Virus record (IMG/VR): IMGVR_UViG_3300022851_000017
Location: 1 to 50,672 of that record
Reading direction: 5' to 3' (one strand)
Length of the DNA stretch: 50,672 nucleotides
Source of the DNA: a virus
A model generated the notes under the pieces. The model made no database searches and was not told the origin of the DNA. It saw nothing but the letters and a program-made list of their open reading frames with translations. Shown here piece by piece: positions 8,547-18,313 of the stretch. Positions within the stretch are counted from its first letter, which is position 1. The number at the start of each line of letters is the position of its first letter. The position numbers and the translations under genes are program-made.

Positions 8547-8577
8547 CCCATAGTAGTTTTCTGCTATGGGTTTTTTT
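8547..8577 (+). terminator. Intrinsic terminator
   Basis: Perfect 7-bp stem CCCATAG (8547-8553) and CTATGGG (8564-8570), 10-base loop, then seven T. An ATG inside the 3' arm (8566) opens a frame into the next gene, but a start in a terminator stem followed by a poly-Phe/Ile run is unlikely. Confidence 0.88.
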
Positions 8578-8592
8578 ATTATTATTATTATT

Positions 8593-11500
8593 ATGACTAA
8601 AATTAAAGTATCAGAATTACAGAAAATAATAAATCTTGATGAGGATATAAACAATCAAGTAAAGGTCAGAGGATTATGGGCACTCCAACCCCAATCGGTT
8701 TCTGATATGAAGGAAGACCTTACATATAATCACGTAAGTGATGCAACACAAGACGAATATACTATGGGTGGTGAATCAATCACGGAAGATTACCCAGAAT
8801 CGTTTAATCATGAAGAGTTTAAAAAATTGAATTCATATGCAGCAAGAAAAAGATATTGTGAGGAACATTTAAGTAGATTAGGTAGTGGAAGTGCAAGGAT
8901 TGTTTATGAAATTGATAATGAAACAGTATTAAAACTAGCAAAAAACAAAAAGGGATTAGCACAGAATAATGATGAGATCAATATCTCTATTAGTAATTGG
9001 CATGAAGATATTGTGACTAAGGTGCATGAGTATGATCATGATAGTTTTTGGATAAGATGTGAAAAAGCAATTAGAATAACAAAATCTAGATTTAAAGACT
9101 TAGTTGAGTATTCATTTGACGATATTGCTAGTTTTATTAATGATTATGGGTATAGAAGAAAAGGACAAAGATCACCATTTGGTCAACGAGTAACTCCTGA
9201 AATGATAGATGAATTACAGGAATTAGAGTTCATTACAGATATATTGAGTGTAGTTGATAATTGGAATATTGCAGTTGGTGATTTTGAACGCATATCATCT
9301 TATGGTGAGGTAGTAAGAAATGGTAAGTCACAAGTAGTTTTAACTGATTACGGATTAACATCAGGTACTTATAGTACACACTATACGAGGGAATTTGTGG
9401 AAAACCAAACCGATAATATTATTCTTGAAAGTGTTGAGAACATTAATCCAGACACCTCCCAACACCTTGCTAATTATGTAGCAAAAATTAATGGGTTGTC
9501 AGAACCTCAATTAATGGAGAATGGGTCTGGTGAGTGGGGTCATGCGTATAAGTCAGGTAATAAAGTAATAAAAATAACTAGTGATTCTTCGGAAGCAAAT
9601 AATAGTGAAAAAATAAAAGGTAAGAAAAACAAAAATATAGCAGATATATATGATGTTTTAAAGGTAGAAAATTTACCAAATAATGAAGATGGGGTTTATG
9701 TTATAATTTTAGAATTATTAGACACCAATCCCAATTTAGTTAAAGAAAAAATAAACAACCTAAGTGATTTCTTTAGTTCTGAAATTGGGGTTTCATTTGA
9801 TGAGGTATTTGTTTATGAAGTAGGAAGTTCAAGTTGGTCTGAAACATATGAAATAATAGAAGAAGCATTTATTGAAAAAAATGAAATTGATCTAAAAAAC
9901 TTTTTCCACTCAATATTAGATATTAATAATGAACTCAAATCAAATAATATTGATAGTATGGATTTCTTAAACTATCTAAATTTGGGTTATAAAAATGGTA
10001 ATTTAGCGTTTTTTGATTTAGGTGGTGCCAACAATACTAGCGAGAATTCAGAATCAACCACTAATTTATTGGAAAATAAACAAAAGTTTGAAAAGGAGTT
10101 TGTAAAAAAAGGATATGTTAACGATGAGGATATTAAGAACATATTAGATATCACTGGAGGTGATGAAACGACTTGGCTTGTTGCAGACGGGTACAGTAAA
10201 CTAAGGTCAATAAAACCTAATGATTGGGGTAGTGAGCGACCATATGATAAATACATTAAAGATGAACTTGTAAGATACAGTAAATTCATAAAGGACTATA
10301 AAAATACAAAAAATCTATTCCCAATAAAGGATTTTGACCCAATAAATGTTAATATGGGGAAATATGATTTTTTCGATATTAATGGTGCTCTTAAAGCTAG
10401 ACAATCTGCGATTGTAATATTCAAAAGAATACCAGAAAAATACAGAAGGAATATTAAGGGGATTTATAGAGAACCCTTAACAATGGATGAGTTTAGATAC
10501 CATGAAAATGTAGCTGGAGACAGTATAAGAACATTAAGCGCATTCTTGGGACGGGTTAGTGAAATGCAAAATGAAAAGAAAGCAACAATACTTATGAACA
10601 AAGTGTTTTCTTCAAAGAATGATACAATGAAAAAAGTATTACATCATATAGAGAATTCTAGACCTACCTATCTTAATCATGACAATGAAATGAAAGGATT
10701 CTTAGAAATGGTTGAGTATGAAGAGGAATATAACGAGGCAAAACTCCTCTATAAATCTGAGTCCGTTGTAGTTGTTGATATTAAATCTTCAGACGCAATG
10801 AAAAGTTTAGGATGTGGTTCTCAATGGTGCTTTACAACAGAAACAGGAGGATCATCTCACTGGGAAAACTATGCTGAGGATTCTCATGTTAATATGGTAA
10901 TAAATTTTGATGAAGAGCCTGATTCATATGATAGAATGGTAGTAGTTTTACCAACAGGAGGGGTTTATAACATGTATAACGAGTATATCGAAGATGGTTA
11001 TGACTATATCGAAGATTTAGGGGTTATACAATATATAAATGTTATGGAATCAGTAGAAGAAAAAATCGAAAGCAATAGAGTTCTTGACGAGTCAATTGTT
11101 TTATTGGAAAGACTTCTTTCATGGATGCCAAAGGCACAAGCGGTAAGTGTTAAAAAGGAATGTACTTTAGGCGGTAATGGTGATGGCACTTCAAAGGCAT
11201 GTAATCAAGGGGATATGGATGCGATTCGTTTGGAAGATATTAAGGATGAGAACTACAAAAAACCCAATGAACCAAATGTTGCCGAGGACGAACTCAAAGA
11301 TAGACACTACTTCAAAGGCATTGAAGGATTTATCAGTGAAGAAGTATTACCTTATTCGGACGAAGACCATGAAGAAGATGAAAATAGACTAGATAGTTAC
11401 GAGATATATGATCAAGCAATTACTATTGCAAGAGATAATAATATTCGTATAGGAAATAACAAAGAATTAGTAGGTTACATTATCGAAGGAACCGCTGTTG

Positions 11501-12729
11501 TTGGTGGGCTATTTGAATCAGTTAGTAATGAAGAGTATTCTTTTGATGTTGTGATAGATAGAAATTTCCAGAGAAAAGGATATGGAAGGGAATTGGTTGA
11601 ATATGCATTAGACCAATTTAATTATTATAAAGATATTTATGGCGATGACTTAAAACTAGACGTTTATGTGGTAAATCCAAACATGAGAGATTTACTAAAA
11701 AAATATTTCAACTTTAATGATCTCGAAAAGACTGGTGATGATAGATATAGAATGACTAAGGAAGGACTACATGAGGGACTAAATACATCGCCCCTGAACG
11801 AACTTCTAGTAAAGAATGAGTCTATACCTCCGTTTATAATTAAGGACAATAGGCTCTATTTAAATGGCATTGAGGTTGGTGATATATTTATATCACAAAA
11901 ACAGTTTGGTGATGATAAATATATGGATTTAAGTGAAATTCAAATTCATCCAGACCAAAGGGGTAATCATATTTTTACTAGATTTATGAATGCATTAGCT
12001 AAGTATACCGATAAAAATAACATAATATTATCACTTACGCCAGAAGCTAAAGAGGGTGGTGGTCTCACAACAAACCAATTAATTGATAAATATAGAAAGA
12101 TTGGGTTTGTTAGGAATACAGCATCGAACAGTGACTTCAGGGTATCTAATTCTTGGATTAGGTATCCTAAGAATAATAATATTTCCGAATCAACTAACAC
12201 AGGCAAGGTTGAGTTTGGTTGCTTAATGCTAGGTCTTAAAATTCCTATGTGGGATAAATTAATAAATAGAATAGAAGAAAATGATTTATATGACGATGGT
12301 TCAGATACATTTGGTAGAGAAGATGAAATGCATATTACTATACTTTACGGTTATCACAATAATGTTAGTGCTGACGATGTGTTTGGCGTTTTGGGAGATA
12401 TTGAAGAAAATATTTCAGTTAATGCAACAGGTATTAGTTTATTTGAGAACAAAGAAATGGGGTTTGATGTAGTAAAAATAGACATAGAACCAAGTGAAGG
12501 TTTAATAAAATTAAGAAAGTCTGCTGAAAGTGAAACACTTGATAAGACTTTAACGTATAATGATTATAATCCACATATGACAATGGCATATGTTAAGTCT
12601 GGTGAGGGTAAAAAATACGTGGTTGAATTTAAAGAACCAATTTCTTTAAATGTTAGTACTATTTACTATTCAAATAAAGATAATGAGAAAAAAATTATAC
12701 AATTAAATGGAAGCGATAAGGAATCTTAA
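8593..12729 (+). CDS. Giant multi-domain protein: kinase-like x2, GNAT x2, 2H phosphoesterase
   Basis: A 1,378-residue fusion with the organisation of phage polyvalent proteins. Residues ~97-255 look protein-kinase-like (GSGSARIVYEI, VLKLAK, later TDYGL in the DFG position). Residues ~307-480 are a second, diverged kinase-like unit (GSGEWGHAYKSGNKVIKI, later FFDLGG). Residues ~500-820 hold an unassigned domain with SLGCGSQWCFTTE. Residues ~938-1058 are a GNAT acetyltransferase with the acetyl-CoA loop QRKGYGRELVEYAL. Residues ~1078-1198 are GNAT-like (HPDQRGNHIF). Residues ~1205-1366 are a 2H phosphoesterase with HIT (His1247) and HMT (His1328). I chose 8593 because the ATG 9 codons upstream lies in a terminator hairpin. 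It overlaps the nucleotidyltransferase gene by 23 bases. It could be an injected host-modifying protein; that is inference. Confidence 0.82.
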   Translation: MTKIKVSELQKIINLDEDINNQVKVRGLWALQPQSVSDMKEDLTYNHVSDATQDEYTMGGESITEDYPESFNHEEFKKLNSYAARKRYCEEHLSRLGSGSARIVYEIDNETVLKLAKNKKGLAQNNDEINISISNWHEDIVTKVHEYDHDSFWIRCEKAIRITKSRFKDLVEYSFDDIASFINDYGYRRKGQRSPFGQRVTPEMIDELQELEFITDILSVVDNWNIAVGDFERISSYGEVVRNGKSQVVLTDYGLTSGTYSTHYTREFVENQTDNIILESVENINPDTSQHLANYVAKINGLSEPQLMENGSGEWGHAYKSGNKVIKITSDSSEANNSEKIKGKKNKNIADIYDVLKVENLPNNEDGVYVIILELLDTNPNLVKEKINNLSDFFSSEIGVSFDEVFVYEVGSSSWSETYEIIEEAFIEKNEIDLKNFFHSILDINNELKSNNIDSMDFLNYLNLGYKNGNLAFFDLGGANNTSENSESTTNLLENKQKFEKEFVKKGYVNDEDIKNILDITGGDETTWLVADGYSKLRSIKPNDWGSERPYDKYIKDELVRYSKFIKDYKNTKNLFPIKDFDPINVNMGKYDFFDINGALKARQSAIVIFKRIPEKYRRNIKGIYREPLTMDEFRYHENVAGDSIRTLSAFLGRVSEMQNEKKATILMNKVFSSKNDTMKKVLHHIENSRPTYLNHDNEMKGFLEMVEYEEEYNEAKLLYKSESVVVVDIKSSDAMKSLGCGSQWCFTTETGGSSHWENYAEDSHVNMVINFDEEPDSYDRMVVVLPTGGVYNMYNEYIEDGYDYIEDLGVIQYINVMESVEEKIESNRVLDESIVLLERLLSWMPKAQAVSVKKECTLGGNGDGTSKACNQGDMDAIRLEDIKDENYKKPNEPNVAEDELKDRHYFKGIEGFISEEVLPYSDEDHEEDENRLDSYEIYDQAITIARDNNIRIGNNKELVGYIIEGTAVVGGLFESVSNEEYSFDVVIDRNFQRKGYGRELVEYALDQFNYYKDIYGDDLKLDVYVVNPNMRDLLKKYFNFNDLEKTGDDRYRMTKEGLHEGLNTSPLNELLVKNESIPPFIIKDNRLYLNGIEVGDIFISQKQFGDDKYMDLSEIQIHPDQRGNHIFTRFMNALAKYTDKNNIILSLTPEAKEGGGLTTNQLIDKYRKIGFVRNTASNSDFRVSNSWIRYPKNNNISESTNTGKVEFGCLMLGLKIPMWDKLINRIEENDLYDDGSDTFGREDEMHITILYGYHNNVSADDVFGVLGDIEENISVNATGISLFENKEMGFDVVKIDIEPSEGLIKLRKSAESETLDKTLTYNDYNPHMTMAYVKSGEGKKYVVEFKEPISLNVSTIYYSNKDNEKKIIQLNGSDKES

Positions 12730-13891
12730 GTACAAAAAATTCATACAACACCTAATATCGTTAGGTGGTGATGTCTATGTTGTTGGTGGTGCAGTAAGGG
12801 ATCAGCTTTTAGGTAAGCAAAATAAAGATATTGATCTTGTTGTGAGAGAATTACCACTAGAGAAGTTGGTTTCTGAATTAAAACAATTTGGTAAGGTAGA
12901 TGTAGTTGGTGAATCTTTTGGAGTAATTAAACTTCAAGCACATGAAGATAACGATGAATATGATATTGCTCTACCTAGAACAGAAGAAAAAATAGGTAAC
13001 GGTCACAAAGGTTTTGATGTACAATCAGATAAAGACCTACCAATTGAAACGGATTTAACTAGACGTGACTCAACTATTAATTCAGTTGCATTTAGTTTAA
13101 ATAGGGGAAAATTGGTCGATCCGCTTGGTGGACTTGAAGATATGAAGAAAAAACAAATGAGAATGACTAATCCTCAAAGTTTTTCTGATGATCCATTAAG
13201 AATGCTTAGAACTGTTGGGTTTGCTTCTAGATTTGGTTTTGATATTGAGGAAGAAACTATGAGAGTAATTAGAAGTAATGCATCTTCAATAAGTGAAATA
13301 TCACCAGAAAGAATTCTAATAGAATTTGATAAGATAGTAAAAAAGGGTAATAAACAAGAAGCAGCAATACTTCTTAAATCCACTGGATTAATGTCACACA
13401 TATTTGGTAAAGATTCTGGGGTATTAATATCACCTGAATGGGAAAAAATCGGTACAATGGGAGAGTTTATCTTTTTATTGTCTAATAATTTAGTGGAAAA
13501 ACCATCTGAATTTTTTAAAACCCACCTAAAAGGTGATTTAGAAAACATGAAGTTAATTGAGGCGTTAGAGATATTTGATTCAAACGATGTAAAAAACATT
13601 AATGAAGCTAGAGTATTAGTTCAAATGATGCTTGGTAAATCCAAAAGTTCCTTATCGAGTCAATTACTTCAAAGGGATACCTTAATAAGTCAAGCAATTG
13701 AAGAATTTAGAAACCAAAAAATGCCTAAAGGTATGGGTGACCTAGATATCAATGGTAATGATTTAATGTCATTGGGTCTTAAAGGTAAAGAGGTTGGCGA
13801 TATGTTAAAGTCATTGCTTATTAGAATTTATTTTGATAAGATTGAAAATAGAAAAGAAGAACTATTAAATTTTGTGAAGAATGGAAGATAA
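12707..13891 (+). CDS. CCA-adding-type tRNA nucleotidyltransferase / poly(A) polymerase
   Basis: A 394-residue class II nucleotidyltransferase of the Pol-beta superfamily. Motifs are GGAVRD at residues 27-32, the metal-binding pair DID at 41-43, TRRDSTINSVA at about 117-127 (ribose/ATP recognition), and DDPLRMLRTVGFASRFGF at about 162-180. The C-terminal half is helical, as in bacterial CCA-adding enzymes. The family adds CCA to tRNA 3' ends or A tails to RNA; sequence alone does not separate the two. It lies between two 2H phosphoesterase units and near a HAD phosphatase, which points to repair of damaged tRNA. It overlaps both neighbours (23 and 11 bases). No tRNA gene is seen in the window. 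Confidence 0.9.
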   Translation: MEAIRNLKYKKFIQHLISLGGDVYVVGGAVRDQLLGKQNKDIDLVVRELPLEKLVSELKQFGKVDVVGESFGVIKLQAHEDNDEYDIALPRTEEKIGNGHKGFDVQSDKDLPIETDLTRRDSTINSVAFSLNRGKLVDPLGGLEDMKKKQMRMTNPQSFSDDPLRMLRTVGFASRFGFDIEEETMRVIRSNASSISEISPERILIEFDKIVKKGNKQEAAILLKSTGLMSHIFGKDSGVLISPEWEKIGTMGEFIFLLSNNLVEKPSEFFKTHLKGDLENMKLIEALEIFDSNDVKNINEARVLVQMMLGKSKSSLSSQLLQRDTLISQAIEEFRNQKMPKGMGDLDINGNDLMSLGLKGKEVGDMLKSLLIRIYFDKIENRKEELLNFVKNGR

Positions 13892-14273
13892 GAATATTTT
13901 ATATACGGCAGTTGTTTTGGATAGTGAATCACATAATAAACTAGTGACATATTTTAAACAACATATTCCAGATAATTGGAAGATATTTGCCCATCATATG
14001 ACTATTCATTTTGGCGGTAAGGCACCTGATAAGTATTTGGGGGATATCGGTACGATACAAACATTGAACGTTACTCATTTCGGCATGTCCGATAAGGTTA
14101 TGGCAGTGAGGGTTAATGGGTATTCAACTGAAAACAAGATACCTCACATTACTTTAGCGGTAAATATTGACCAAGGTGGAAAGCCATTCATGTCTAATCA
14201 GATTACTGACTGGAAACAAATTTCATTTGGTCTAGGCTTAAGTGGAGAGGTAGTAGAAATAAAAAGAGGATAA
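13881..14273 (+). CDS. 2H phosphoesterase (RNA-ligase CPD-like)
   Basis: A 130-residue stand-alone 2H phosphoesterase. Both signature His-x-Thr motifs are present: HHMTIHFGG near residue 37 and PHITLAV near residue 89. The family opens 2',3'-cyclic phosphates or related phosphodiesters. The second motif (HITLAV) resembles the cyclic phosphodiesterase domain of fungal and plant tRNA ligases. The start overlaps the nucleotidyltransferase stop by 11 bases, so the two proteins are likely made together. Inference: it processes RNA ends before the nucleotidyltransferase acts. The preceding giant protein carries a second, diverged 2H domain. Confidence 0.82.
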   Translation: MEDKNILYTAVVLDSESHNKLVTYFKQHIPDNWKIFAHHMTIHFGGKAPDKYLGDIGTIQTLNVTHFGMSDKVMAVRVNGYSTENKIPHITLAVNIDQGGKPFMSNQITDWKQISFGLGLSGEVVEIKRG

Positions 14274-14314
14274 ATTTCTTTTTATTATTAATATTTCTTT
14301 ACTTTTGTTTTCAT

Positions 14315-14806
14315 ATGGAATATGACAAATCAAAAAGTTTTGGTGATATAATTGAATCCGAAGTACTTAGTGTTTTAAAGAAGGTGTACCCTGAAGCGTA
14401 TATAGATAATACGGGTAGGGTGAATAGTGATAGAGATATCCATATACCCGAAAAAAATATAAGTATCGAAGTTAAGGGAGACTATAAATCTAAAGAAACT
14501 GGTAATATTGTAGTTGAAGTTGAATTTAATGGTAAACCATCTGCATTATCAGTAACAAAATCTGATTACTGGGTTTTTATTGATGGTGAAAGAATGATTT
14601 GGTTAACACCATTAATGATATATAGGTTCTTAGAGCAGAACGAATATAGAAGAACCAGTTTTGTTGGTAGTGGGGATAGTGTAGCTAAGTTTGCATACTT
14701 GGTTAGTCATGAAAGTTTAGTATTATATACGTATGATCACGGTAAGGTCAAAATGATCGATAAGGGTTCAAAAATGCATTATGATAACATTTTTAAGTAT
14801 TTATAA
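14315..14806 (+). CDS. PD-(D/E)XK nuclease-like protein
   Basis: A 163-residue protein with a PD-(D/E)XK-like core: an acidic stretch DRDIHIPEKN (about residues 40-48), then the strand ISIEVKGD with Glu52 and Lys54. Further on is YWVFIDGERMIWLTP, the hydrophobic core strand. This order is typical of small Holliday-junction resolvase-like or restriction-like nucleases. A substrate cannot be read from the sequence. Given the neighbours it could act on nucleic acid damage or on host DNA. A 41-base gap with an AT-rich leader precedes the ATG. Its last codons and stop contain an AGTATTTATA motif serving the next gene. Confidence 0.62.
   Translation: MEYDKSKSFGDIIESEVLSVLKKVYPEAYIDNTGRVNSDRDIHIPEKNISIEVKGDYKSKETGNIVVEVEFNGKPSALSVTKSDYWVFIDGERMIWLTPLMIYRFLEQNEYRRTSFVGSGDSVAKFAYLVSHESLVLYTYDHGKVKMIDKGSKMHYDNIFKYL
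14796..14805 (+). promoter_or_regulatory. AGTATTTATA motif overlapping a stop codon
   Basis: Exact match that overlaps the last codons and stop of the nuclease-like gene and ends 3 bases before the ATG at 14809. Because the coding sequence constrains it, this copy is weaker evidence than the intergenic ones. Confidence 0.4.
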
Positions 14807-14808
14807 TT

Positions 14809-15657
14809 ATGATAACAAGAATATTATTTATTGATTTTGATGCTACGTTAGCAGATAGTCCTATGCCTGATGTTGGTAAAAACATATGGTTAAAAAAAAC
14901 AGGTCAAGAGTATCCACATATTGGATGGTGGGGTAGAAAAGAAAGTCTAAATAATGAAGTCTTCGATATTAAACTTTTTGATGAAGTAAAAAGGGTTTTA
15001 GATGAAGGTAATCGTGATCCAAACACTGTATCAGTATTACTTACGAGTAGAGTGAGTAAGTTACTACCTGAAATACTTACTGTTTTAGAGGCTAATGATG
15101 CTAAGTTTGATCATTACTCACTTAAAGAGAACAATAAGGATAAGAATGTAAGAATTAAGGAATTTATTAAACAATACCCGTCTGTTAGTCAAATTGATAT
15201 ATATGATGATAGGGATAAGGAATTTGCTGTTTTTAAAAACCTAGAAAGTGAGATTGGTGATTTGTTTGAAATTAATATCTTTAAATGTATTAACGGTTCT
15301 GTTAGTCTCTTTGATGGTGTGACTGTCAATGAGGCTGTTGAGATTATAAAAGAAGTGATTAGTGAGGGGATGTCCGAAATAAAGAAACAAGTACTTAGGG
15401 CAAGAGGTATATCCGATCCAATGAAGGATAAGATTCTAAAATATTTAACCTCTTCAACCGAATACAATACTGGTTTAATTAAACCTTTGAGAAAGGAAGA
15501 AAAATTCATATCTAAAACCAAAAAATCATCAGGTGTTAGTGTTGGTGGAGATAAGAAAGGGTTTTATGTCTATACCCATAGAAGTAGGAGCAATTCTTAC
15601 CCTACTCAATTGGAAATACCTAAAGAAGTAATAGAAAAAATAGAAGCAACTGGATAA
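14809..15657 (+). CDS. HAD phosphatase, RNA-repair (SAK) type
   Basis: Residues 1-~170 are a HAD-superfamily phosphatase. Motif I is FIDFDATLADS (Asp9, Asp11), motif II is VLLTSR, and the acidic motif IV is IYDDRDKE. The insert after motif I, with PMPDVGKNIW followed by GWWGRKESLN, is the pattern I associate with the HAD_SAK family (Swiss Army Knife RNA repair), proteins linked to 2H phosphoesterases. Predicted activity is removal of phosphate from RNA or nucleotide ends, as the phosphatase half of T4 Pnkp does. The C-terminal ~100 residues (ARGISDPMKDKILKYL, later PTQLEIPKEVIEKIEATG) are basic and unassigned, perhaps RNA-binding. A 2-base gap follows the nuclease-like gene. Confidence 0.78.
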   Translation: MITRILFIDFDATLADSPMPDVGKNIWLKKTGQEYPHIGWWGRKESLNNEVFDIKLFDEVKRVLDEGNRDPNTVSVLLTSRVSKLLPEILTVLEANDAKFDHYSLKENNKDKNVRIKEFIKQYPSVSQIDIYDDRDKEFAVFKNLESEIGDLFEINIFKCINGSVSLFDGVTVNEAVEIIKEVISEGMSEIKKQVLRARGISDPMKDKILKYLTSSTEYNTGLIKPLRKEEKFISKTKKSSGVSVGGDKKGFYVYTHRSRSNSYPTQLEIPKEVIEKIEATG

Positions 15658-15673
15658 ATAATTACAAATTATT

Positions 15674-15682
15674 GTATTTATA
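15674..15682 (+). promoter_or_regulatory. GTATTTATA motif, putative phage promoter
   Basis: GTATTTATATAAA runs straight into the ATG at 15687 (4 bases after the core). A TTG inside the motif extends the frame upstream, but I reject it as the start. Confidence 0.55.
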
Positions 15683-15686
15683 TAAA

Positions 15687-16514
15687 ATGAGCATAGATTT
15701 AAGATATAAACCAAGTTGGTTACCTCAAATTTCAAAACCATATACTGATGTTTTAAAAAAACTAAAGGAAGAGGGTGTGAAATTTAAATTAGTGAAAGTG
15801 AACCCACTTGCACTTAAACCACTTCAAGGAATTGTTTTTACTAATGAAATAACTCCAAAAGAAACTGTAGAACCGATATGGTTGTCTAATAATAATGATA
15901 TTTTAGATGGTCACCACAGGTATTTTAATGCCTTATCAAATATTAAGGGATTACCTGCTGTTAGGGTTGATGCTGAAAAGAAAGATGCTGCAAGGGTCTT
16001 AAATAAGATAATGGACTTATTTCAATTTGAAGAAATGAATGAAGTTCTTGCTCAAAACCATTTAAATACACAGAATGACCCAGACTCAGTATTCTATGAT
16101 AGTCAGTTCCTTGAATCATTAAGAAGAGAAGCATACGAAGAAATAGACGAAGATTCGATTGGTGGTGAAAAAACAGTAGTCAATGGATATAGAAAGGTAC
16201 CACCTCACTCCAATTCGAGTGTTGGTAATTTTTTTATGTTGAACCCAGTAAGGGGATATAAAGAATATGAGTTATCGATAAGTAAGTTACTCGATACAAA
16301 TAAAATGAATATAAATTTCTCATCATCACAATCACCTGTCGAGGTGTTGGCAACGTATTGGTTTCCTGAATATGATTTCTCAAAACTAGAGAAGAAATTA
16401 TCTAACAGTAAGGCAACAAAGGGAAATTTAATAAATAAAGCAGTCACCGAAAAGGCAAAATCAATGGGATTTGATGCAATAAAATTTGGTGATATAATGA
16501 TACTAGCATTTTAA
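15687..16514 (+). CDS. ParB/sulfiredoxin-like domain protein, ART-like C-terminus
   Basis: A 275-residue protein counted from the ATG after the GTATTTATA motif. Residues ~25-110 match the ParB/Srx-like fold: the strand ...EPIWLSNNNDILDGHHRYFNAL carries the DGHHR core. In this fold the loop binds a nucleotide and may give nuclease or kinase activity. The middle is unassigned. The last ~30 residues (AKSMGFDAIKFGDIMILAF) resemble the C-terminal strand of ADP-ribosyltransferase-like domains in phage polyvalent proteins (G-[YF]-D-[AG]-I ... v-v-F), but the ART catalytic residues are not clear. It may act on host targets early in infection, or be a virion protein. ParB-like domain fairly sure, ART weak. 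Confidence 0.6.
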   Translation: MSIDLRYKPSWLPQISKPYTDVLKKLKEEGVKFKLVKVNPLALKPLQGIVFTNEITPKETVEPIWLSNNNDILDGHHRYFNALSNIKGLPAVRVDAEKKDAARVLNKIMDLFQFEEMNEVLAQNHLNTQNDPDSVFYDSQFLESLRREAYEEIDEDSIGGEKTVVNGYRKVPPHSNSSVGNFFMLNPVRGYKEYELSISKLLDTNKMNINFSSSQSPVEVLATYWFPEYDFSKLEKKLSNSKATKGNLINKAVTEKAKSMGFDAIKFGDIMILAF

Positions 16515-16915: not shown

Positions 16916-18313
16916 ATGAAAGACAAGATTAAAATTTTATTCTATAATAGAGATTCTGCTGGTGTAAATTACTACAGAACACAAACCCCTGCAATGCAAT
17001 TACAGAGGGATTATCCAGACAAATTTGAAGTTGAAATAAATTCAACAATAGATTTTAGTGATTTTGATAAGACAATTGAATATTTAGCATCATTTGACAT
17101 TATCCATTATCACAAAAAAATTGTAGATACTGTTATGGGTCAAAGAAAATTAGTTGAAAGACTAAAGAAAGAAGGTGTCACTATTGTGGTTGATATTGAT
17201 GATTATTGGGAACTCCATAAAACACATCTTTTATATGGTAAGTTTAAGAAAGAAAAAAGAGATAAAGAAATCCTCGCTAACTTAGAATTAGCTGATTATG
17301 TTACCACCACCACTGAAGTATTCGCTAAGGAGTTAAGAGCTAAACTAAATAAGGATAATGTTTTTGTATTACCCAATTCAATCGATCCAGAATGGATGGA
17401 TCAATTTGTTGATAGAAGAAAGCCAAGTGAGGATGGTAAGGTAAGAATTACCTATATGGCAGGTTCATCACATAAATACGACCTTGAGCAATTAGAGGGT
17501 ACTGTTAACCTTTTAAATGGTGATCCACAGACAAGAGGTAAATTTAAAATTATTGTTGCTGGTTGGGATATTGAAGGTAGAACAACTAAATATACTTTTA
17601 ATGAGGACTTACATAAAGAACTAATTGATAGAGGTCTATGGGGTAAAAATATTGTAAAGGAGATCAATAGGGCTGATGGTAATGTTAATATGGTACCATC
17701 CATGCCTAATGACTTAAAGACTAAGTATTCAGGTAATATGATTGAAAAAAATGAAGAATCAATTAGACCTGAAGAAAGTGTATATAATGTTTATGAAAGA
17801 ATACTGACTGATAATTATAAAATTATTGATGACGAAAAGCATATTAAACATCTTGGGGATTACTCGAAAGAAAAGTATGAAAATGAAGTAACTTATTCTA
17901 GGAGGTGGACACAACCCGCAAATAAATTCGCAAAGGTTCTTGATGAAACTGATATTAGTATCGCACCACTTGCAGATCATAAGTTCAACAATATGAAGTC
18001 AAATCTTAAGGTTGTTGAGTGCTGGTCAAGAAAAATCCCTGTTGTTGTGAGTGATATTGAACCATATAATGTAGATGTGGTGAATTGGGAGGAATGTGTT
18101 TTAATACCAAATAAAAAGAGAAATTATAGTGATTGGTATAAGGCACTTAAAAAGCTAATTCTTGATGAGGAACTAAGAAATAAAATAGGTACAAATCTTT
18201 ATAATTTATATTCGGAAAAGTATAATCTCAAGAATGTAACTGCTAAACGTGCTGATTACTACGAACATATGGTCAAGATCAAAACCGAAGAATTAGAAAA
18301 AATAGAACAATAA
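16916..18313 (+). CDS. Glycosyltransferase, GT-B fold (GT4-like)
   Basis: A 465-residue GT-B glycosyltransferase. The N-lobe starts with KILFYNRDSAGVNYYRTQTP, followed by FDIIHYHK and TIVVDIDDYWEL. The interlobe region has VFVLPNSIDPEWMD, a typical GT4 segment. The C-lobe has ITYMAGSSHKYDL and then DISIAPLADHKFNNMKSNLK with VVECWSRKIPVVVSDIEPY, the donor-binding part, where the usual E-x7-E is loosely kept. It would move a sugar from a nucleotide-sugar donor; the acceptor is unknown (DNA base, host glycan or a virion protein). It lies just before the tail genes. A separate GT-A-like enzyme lies by the Thr-rich fibre gene. Confidence 0.85.
   Translation: MKDKIKILFYNRDSAGVNYYRTQTPAMQLQRDYPDKFEVEINSTIDFSDFDKTIEYLASFDIIHYHKKIVDTVMGQRKLVERLKKEGVTIVVDIDDYWELHKTHLLYGKFKKEKRDKEILANLELADYVTTTTEVFAKELRAKLNKDNVFVLPNSIDPEWMDQFVDRRKPSEDGKVRITYMAGSSHKYDLEQLEGTVNLLNGDPQTRGKFKIIVAGWDIEGRTTKYTFNEDLHKELIDRGLWGKNIVKEINRADGNVNMVPSMPNDLKTKYSGNMIEKNEESIRPEESVYNVYERILTDNYKIIDDEKHIKHLGDYSKEKYENEVTYSRRWTQPANKFAKVLDETDISIAPLADHKFNNMKSNLKVVECWSRKIPVVVSDIEPYNVDVVNWEECVLIPNKKRNYSDWYKALKKLILDEELRNKIGTNLYNLYSEKYNLKNVTAKRADYYEHMVKIKTEELEKIEQ

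Follow-up and report, generated by a model that had tools for sequence, protein, structure and literature searches.

The DNA analysed here is the 50,672-nucleotide IMG/VR virus record IMGVR_UViG_3300022851_000017 (the whole stretch is called the window below), and its subject is a cassette whose central genes encode a CCA-adding enzyme, a small 2H protein and a HAD-type phosphatase. The genes of the record (DNA polymerase, baseplate wedge, primase, SbcC-like protein and endolysin) are those of a large tailed phage, and the 50.7 kb record probably covers only part of a larger virus. A DNA-level search of named phages returned just three matches, one of 353 bases in a 636 kb huge phage and two that were short. 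The cassette contains six open reading frames (ORFs), all on the + strand between 8566 and 16514, which overlap or almost abut. The intergenic gaps are −23 bases between the gene of a giant protein and the CCA gene and −11 bases between the CCA and 2H genes, followed by 41, 2 and 14 bases. An earlier note on this DNA had described a six-gene repair island here; all six ORFs were recovered on the + strand, while the start that it gave, 8593, proved to be an internal ATG of the giant ORF, which begins at 8566. The note had seen no ligase at the locus, and neither an RNA ligase nor an AAA_33 kinase was found when both were searched for in the window. The window record contains no tRNA genes, and PADLOC gave no matches.

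Identity of the three central proteins

The 394-amino-acid (aa) protein encoded at 12707–13891 (+) is a class II CCA-adding enzyme (tRNA nucleotidyltransferase), a solid assignment by sequence that agrees with the earlier note. Its Pfam matches were all above cut-off (PolyA_pol, 3.7e-24; RNA-binding, 1.9e-14; tRNA_NucTran2_2, 1.4e-6), and the catalytic GGxVRD, DxD and RRD motifs, present as GGAVRD, DID and RRD, were invariant in the alignment. The best PDB match was to CCA-adding enzymes (3.5e-26); poly(A) polymerases matched too, and CCA rather than poly(A) addition is predicted. Unlike E. coli-type Cca, the window protein had no HD domain match in Pfam. As a single-sequence query it returned no relative among viral contigs, so alignment-based scans were needed. 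In some of the loci found (L084, L088, L259, L262 and L130) the CCA gene is split into two ORFs. At L084 (4166–8510) a nuclease-like ORF of 331 aa fills the gap and a homing-endonuclease-like ORF of 334 aa precedes the HAD gene, which suggests mobile insertions into this set of genes.

The next gene (13881–14273, +) encodes a 2H protein of 130 aa, which was named 2Hb to distinguish it from 2Ha, the 2H domain at the C-terminus of the giant protein. 2Hb matched PF08302 (tRNA_lig_CPD) exactly at the cut-off (23 bits, 6e-5), and 37 of 48 2Hb relatives matched the same family. A sequence search of 2Hb against the PDB gave no match, and its structural likeness came from fold comparison, in which CNPase was the best PDB fold match (6e-4) of a model with a predicted local distance difference test score (pLDDT) of 96.5. 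In the HxT motifs H39xT41 and H89xT91, the residues T41, H89 and T91 were invariant and H39 was kept at 90% or more. From family, relatives, model and fold, 2Hb is probably an RNA end-healing protein of the CNPase/tRNA-ligase-CPD type, with a predicted 2',3'-cyclic phosphodiesterase activity. Proteins of the 2Hb type joined to AAA_33 kinase domains, the PNK-CPD layout, also occur in L113, among others. The kinase-2H fusions in L113, L120, L132 and L142 are about 315 aa long and are apparently phage PNK-CPD healing enzymes; in L113 a CCA gene lies about 1.2 kb upstream of the fusion.

The third protein (282 aa, 14809–15657, +) is a phosphatase of the HAD_SAK_1 type (1.7e-10, 41.4 bits against a cut-off of 25.6). 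It carries the HAD motif DFDAT; the residues D9, D11 and D134 were invariant, T79 and K112 were conserved at 90% or more, and the extra domain at the C-terminus corresponds to phrog_3666 of PHROG. Domain searches, by Pfam on the window and in the relatives of 2Hb, thus placed the 2H and HAD_SAK proteins in the families that the earlier note had expected. In bacterial and archaeal genomes the HAD was found at two loci only, one in a phage-like contig of a Bacteroidota metagenome-assembled genome and the other in a single-cell genome of Prochlorococcus. For that reason, a cellular origin was given up as a leading explanation for the cassette. The Bacteroidota contig (L278) carries a cassette like that of the window, with genes for a GIY-YIG-like ORF, 2H, PDDEXK-like protein, HAD, ParB and glycosyltransferase, hinting at Bacteroidota hosts.

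Conservation of the cassette in viral contigs

To describe the neighbourhood of these genes, 2.9 million viral contigs were scanned by alignment-guided searches seeded separately on HAD, 2Hb and the CCA enzyme, and the three scans returned many contigs in common. Removal of near-duplicates left 54 CCA loci, and genes within 7 kb were counted as neighbours. This analysis showed that 46 of the 54 loci had 2Hb, 42 had HAD and 41 had both, always on the same strand. The usual order was CCA > 2Hb > (PDDEXK) > HAD > ParB, though the identity of the CCA enzymes to that of the window was about 40–57%. In a CCA tree of 77 rows made by a quick method, the associations with 2H and with HAD each needed at least four state changes.

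A number of results weigh against taking this order as a sign of joint function. The window's flanking genes recur at 45 of the 54 CCA loci, and part of the conserved order, perhaps much of it, is therefore explained by shared ancestry. Outside the window lineage, 2Hb accompanied 3 of 9 CCA loci and HAD 2 of 9; 14 of 18 HAD loci there had no CCA gene nearby, and 2Hb too occurs without CCA. More than 350 kb separate the CCA and HAD genes in two huge phages, LR756504 and LR756502, and L002, a syntenic relative, keeps 2H and HAD with no CCA gene at that place. Gene order, which the earlier note had named as a check on its idea, is thus kept in many divergent phages, but these three do not follow it. 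The HD domain gives a mixed picture as well. Strict mutual exclusivity of HD and 2H/HAD held in part only: L254 and L257, in which CCA occurs without 2H or HAD, carry HD, but 6 of 8 CCA proteins without 2H/HAD have no HD either, and HD and 2H occur side by side in L158. This partial exclusivity lends weak support to a replacement of HD activities by 2Hb and HAD.

Fusions and RNA-repair genes outside the window lineage

The three domains are also found as a single 2H-CCA-HAD ORF in L233 (694 aa), L246 (708 aa) and L075 (1031 aa, with an insert), and such fusions occur without the window's flanking genes. Two-part fusions, likewise away from those flanking genes, were found in L092 (2H-HAD, 298 aa) and L190 (CCA-2H, 503 aa). 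Separate 2H, CCA and HAD genes are adjacent in L011 and L082, and CCA adjoins HAD in L172, L176 and L182. The L233 and L246 fusions are held by records G013 and G027, respectively. RlaP is close to the trio in G013, G027 and G021, and in G013 and G027 a PF09414 RNA ligase and RlaP lie no more than 11 kb from the fusion; the ligase protein of G027 carries a PHA02142 OB domain. G013 also has an AAA_33 kinase, a cREC_REC protein and a Pth2-like protein (our own reading, with no Pfam match), and its tRNA island begins about 2 kb downstream of the fusion. In G020 the ligase and RlaP are at the contig end opposite the trio, and would be neighbours only if the genome is circular. RlaP, RNA ligases, cRec, the CCA enzyme, 2H and SAK-family HAD are all given as jumbo-phage RNA-repair parts in section 3.4.9 of PMC7824862.

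Since the order is conserved, the catalytic residues are intact and the three domains are fused in other phages, the CCA enzyme, 2Hb and HAD are read here as one predicted tRNA 3'-end healing-and-rebuilding module, with a probability of roughly 0.6. The core of the earlier note, which had seen an RNA 3'-end repair set in the 2H, HAD and CCA proteins, is borne out by the conserved order and the single-protein fusions. It could be argued that there is no functional unit, and that a fast-shuffling region of polyvalent-protein domains contains neighbours by descent. The high variety of the fusions, the conserved order being mostly in one lineage and the wide separation of CCA and HAD in other huge phages would all fit this, but the same three domains occur together in unrelated settings, even as single polypeptides, and beside dedicated RNA-repair genes, which makes such an explanation highly improbable.

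The earlier note had advised a search for an RNA ligase elsewhere, and ligases are indeed present in most of the large cassette-bearing or related records: PF09414 in 18 of 28 (E ≤ 0.001; 14 above cut-off) and PF09511 in 11 of 28. Healed ends may therefore also feed ligation. These ligases, together with the ligase and RlaP close by in the fusion lineage, could mean that 2H and HAD ready anticodon-loop 3' ends for a distant ligase, and that CCA is merely a co-located translation gene. However, the ligases found in the window lineage sit tens of kb away, the window itself yielded neither ligase nor AAA_33 kinase, and the three proteins in which 2H and HAD are joined directly to CCA argue for CCA as their partner, so we consider this explanation unlikely.

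Two further features of these contigs were observed. In the tRNA islands of G003 and G013 (L299-L300 and L318-L319), whose genes seldom encode CCA, a C directly follows the discriminator in 30/33 and 27/27 tRNA genes by our reading; this bias stands in AT-rich genomes and may be a bias of the tRNA finder. In L011 (1–15561), L026, L028 and L003 many unrelated ORFs have a common N-terminal leader, which is MSWxDILK-like in L011, MKHIxxF/MKHLKRFNE-like in L026/L028 and LTEKDLRRIVKK-like in L003, and these shared leaders are reminiscent of the T4 capsid-targeting leader.

The giant protein and other neighbouring genes

The first gene of the cassette (8566–12729, +) encodes a giant polyvalent-type protein of 1387 aa, in which kinase-like, GNAT and 2H domains are combined in one polypeptide. 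The assignment of its N-terminal protein-kinase-like domain (8803–9465, +) is weak: a profile of 22 relatives matched the SteC kinase 8jbi (3e-4), and Pfam gave no match for this region. The GNAT acetyltransferase domain (residues 934–1048; 11365–11709, +) was above the Pfam cut-off (Acetyltransf_1, 1.7e-6; Acetyltransf_7, 7e-7). ART-PolyVal was present in 5 of 33 related CCA-bearing ORFs. A GGxGDGTSKACNQGD motif occurs in the giant proteins of the window and of L002 (7099–9990), the latter with two versions.

The C-terminal 2Ha domain (12181–12726, +) is Acb1/Usb1/LigT-like. Its Pfam matches were below the cut-offs (Acb1, 4.9e-4, 20.3 bits against 27; 2_5_RNA_ligase2, 5.3e-4), and its profile matched the Acb1 structure 7t26 in the PDB (5e-4). 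Two HxT motifs, at domain positions H51 and H132, were conserved in the alignment. The structure model, whose alignment was built without three rows from annotated phage records, had a pLDDT of 87.8, and Foldseek matched it about equally to Usb1, Acb1, LigT and viral 2'-5' phosphodiesterases. The earlier note had counted the 2H phosphoesterase twice; both folds are supported, but the one in the giant protein is of a different type from the CNPase/tRNA-ligase-CPD-like 2Hb, and the same job for both domains was rejected. 2Ha resembles the anti-CBASS phosphodiesterase Acb1 (CBASS, cyclic-oligonucleotide-based anti-phage signalling system) in sequence and fold, and differs from it in falling below the Pfam cut-off and in being embedded in a polyvalent-type protein.

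An anti-signalling role for 2Ha is plausible. Extended to the cassette, this would make the 2H domains enzymes that break down cyclic or 2'-5' nucleotides produced by host defences such as CBASS, and the other genes incidental neighbours. The likeness of 2Ha to Acb1 and to viral 2'-5' phosphodiesterases speaks for it, as does the Acb1 match in 10 of 33 CCA-bearing ORFs, and RNase or 2'-5' oligonucleotide roles have been proposed for the 2H domains of polyvalent proteins, with which RNA ligases were never seen (PMC5512222). But this explanation covers 2Ha only: 2Hb matches tRNA_lig_CPD/CNPase and not Acb1, and fusions of its type with CCA, HAD and kinase domains exist, so for the cassette as a whole the anti-signalling explanation is improbable. 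The association with CCA and HAD offers an alternative to the roles proposed in PMC5512222, for the 2Hb type only.

The PDDEXK-like protein (163 aa, 14315–14806, +) had a DpnII-MboI match of only 0.018 as its best, and D41, K54 and E68 were invariant in its alignment; its gene accompanies 24 of the 54 CCA loci. The ParB-like gene (15672–16514, +) accompanies 42 of the 54. Its protein matched phrog_2859 (5.8e-8) and phrog_620 (0.08) and has an invariant DGHH motif in the alignment; the window protein had no Pfam match, and ParBc_2 was matched by 1 of 16 relatives (0.018). Just downstream of the cassette, a glycosyltransferase gene (16916–18313) is kept across the window lineage. The giant, PDDEXK-like and ParB-like proteins are frequent neighbours, unproven as parts of the module. 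The claim of the earlier note that all six genes form one repair island was therefore not sustained, as nothing ties the kinase, GNAT, PDDEXK or ParB parts to RNA repair.

Discussion

Metal-independent RNases leave 2',3'-cyclic phosphate or phosphate ends. A tRNA 3' end that was cut or trimmed in this way would carry such a group, which 2Hb would open from the cyclic phosphate to a 2'-phosphate, by analogy with CNPase and Trl1-CPD. HAD would then strip the remaining 2'- or 3'-phosphate to give a free 3'-OH, and the CCA enzyme would restore A, CA or CCA without a template. We infer these catalytic steps from family knowledge, and the substrate and biological trigger are proposed along with them. 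Host tRNAs damaged by defence or toxins may be the substrates, and also phage-encoded tRNAs. Repair of the tail would need no ligase; for breaks in the anticodon, the healed ends could be taken up by ligases encoded elsewhere in the genome.

The module could instead serve maturation, by finishing phage tRNAs whose ends, left by processing nucleases, are cleaned by 2H and HAD. CCA is encoded by 2 of 33 and 4 of 27 tRNA genes in two cassette-bearing records, and the G013 fusion gene is close to a tRNA island. However, normal tRNA processing gives a 3'-OH, which would make 2H and HAD superfluous, and hosts have their own CCA enzyme. A long distance separates the cassette from the tRNA island in G003, the window record is devoid of tRNA genes, and genes nearby for RlaP, RNA ligase, cREC and kinase suggest that damage is repaired. 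We regard maturation as rather unlikely; enzymes that clean RNA ends, with repair genes around them, speak more for the repair of damage.

Within damage repair, a ligase-independent counter-defence of the tRNA 3' tail, in which 2H, HAD and CCA reverse acceptor-end cleavage by host nucleases, is a doubtful possibility. The earlier note had proposed that the genes would counter host nucleases, but the CCA enzyme does not establish this role, because maturation of phage tRNAs without encoded CCA explains it equally. The published defence Cas12a3 (PMC12851939) shows that tail cutting is really used against phages, but its RuvC site should leave a 3'-OH, for which 2H and HAD are not needed, and this weighs against the module reading.

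A close parallel is E. coli-type Cca, which likewise couples CCA addition to the removal of cyclic phosphates or phosphates at tRNA 3' ends. Its HD domain acts as a 2',3'-cyclic phosphodiesterase, 2'-nucleotidase and phosphatase, as far as Yakunin 2004 is cited in PMC10673834. The phage set relies on unrelated 2H and HAD folds, encoded by genes of their own or within fusions of another domain order, and 2Hb with HAD would be a non-homologous counterpart of that HD domain. Pfam and fold comparison place 2Hb in one 2H branch with the PNK-CPD healing enzymes of the Trl1/CNPase kind (PMC5434554), and kinase-2H fusions exist in some phage relatives, whereas the 2Hb of the window is a free-standing protein next to CCA and HAD, unaccompanied by a kinase or ligase. 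T4 Pnkp-Rnl1 shares phage-encoded RNA end healing and a HAD-fold phosphatase, but the cassette has no ligase or 5' kinase and would act on the 3' tail, not on the anticodon. The jumbo-phage inventory (PMC7824862) lists 2H, SAK HAD, CCA enzyme, RlaP, RNA ligases and cRec, but its section 3.4.9 has 2H and HAD serving RNA ligases, with CCA separate, and contains no 2H-CCA-HAD operon or fusion. We found no earlier description of a 2H-HAD-CCA module in the literature examined; a mention of some of the fusions in other papers is possible. This widespread module would be a variant of phage RNA repair.

Cutting tRNA is one of the main ways in which bacteria fight phages, and the phage answers to it are, to our knowledge, ligation or spare tRNAs. 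With the cassette and the single proteins, repair of the tRNA tail would join these answers. The SAK-type HAD family and the large phage 2H family would gain a concrete candidate substrate, and the 2H-CCA-HAD fusion is a predicted trifunctional enzyme suited to assay. If the counter-defence reading is true, the trio, in some phages one trifunctional protein, would be the phage answer to tail-cutting immunity, convergent with the bacterial Cca HD domain. On the module reading, the three enzymes probably let the phage keep making protein by cleaning and rebuilding damaged or unfinished tRNA 3' ends.

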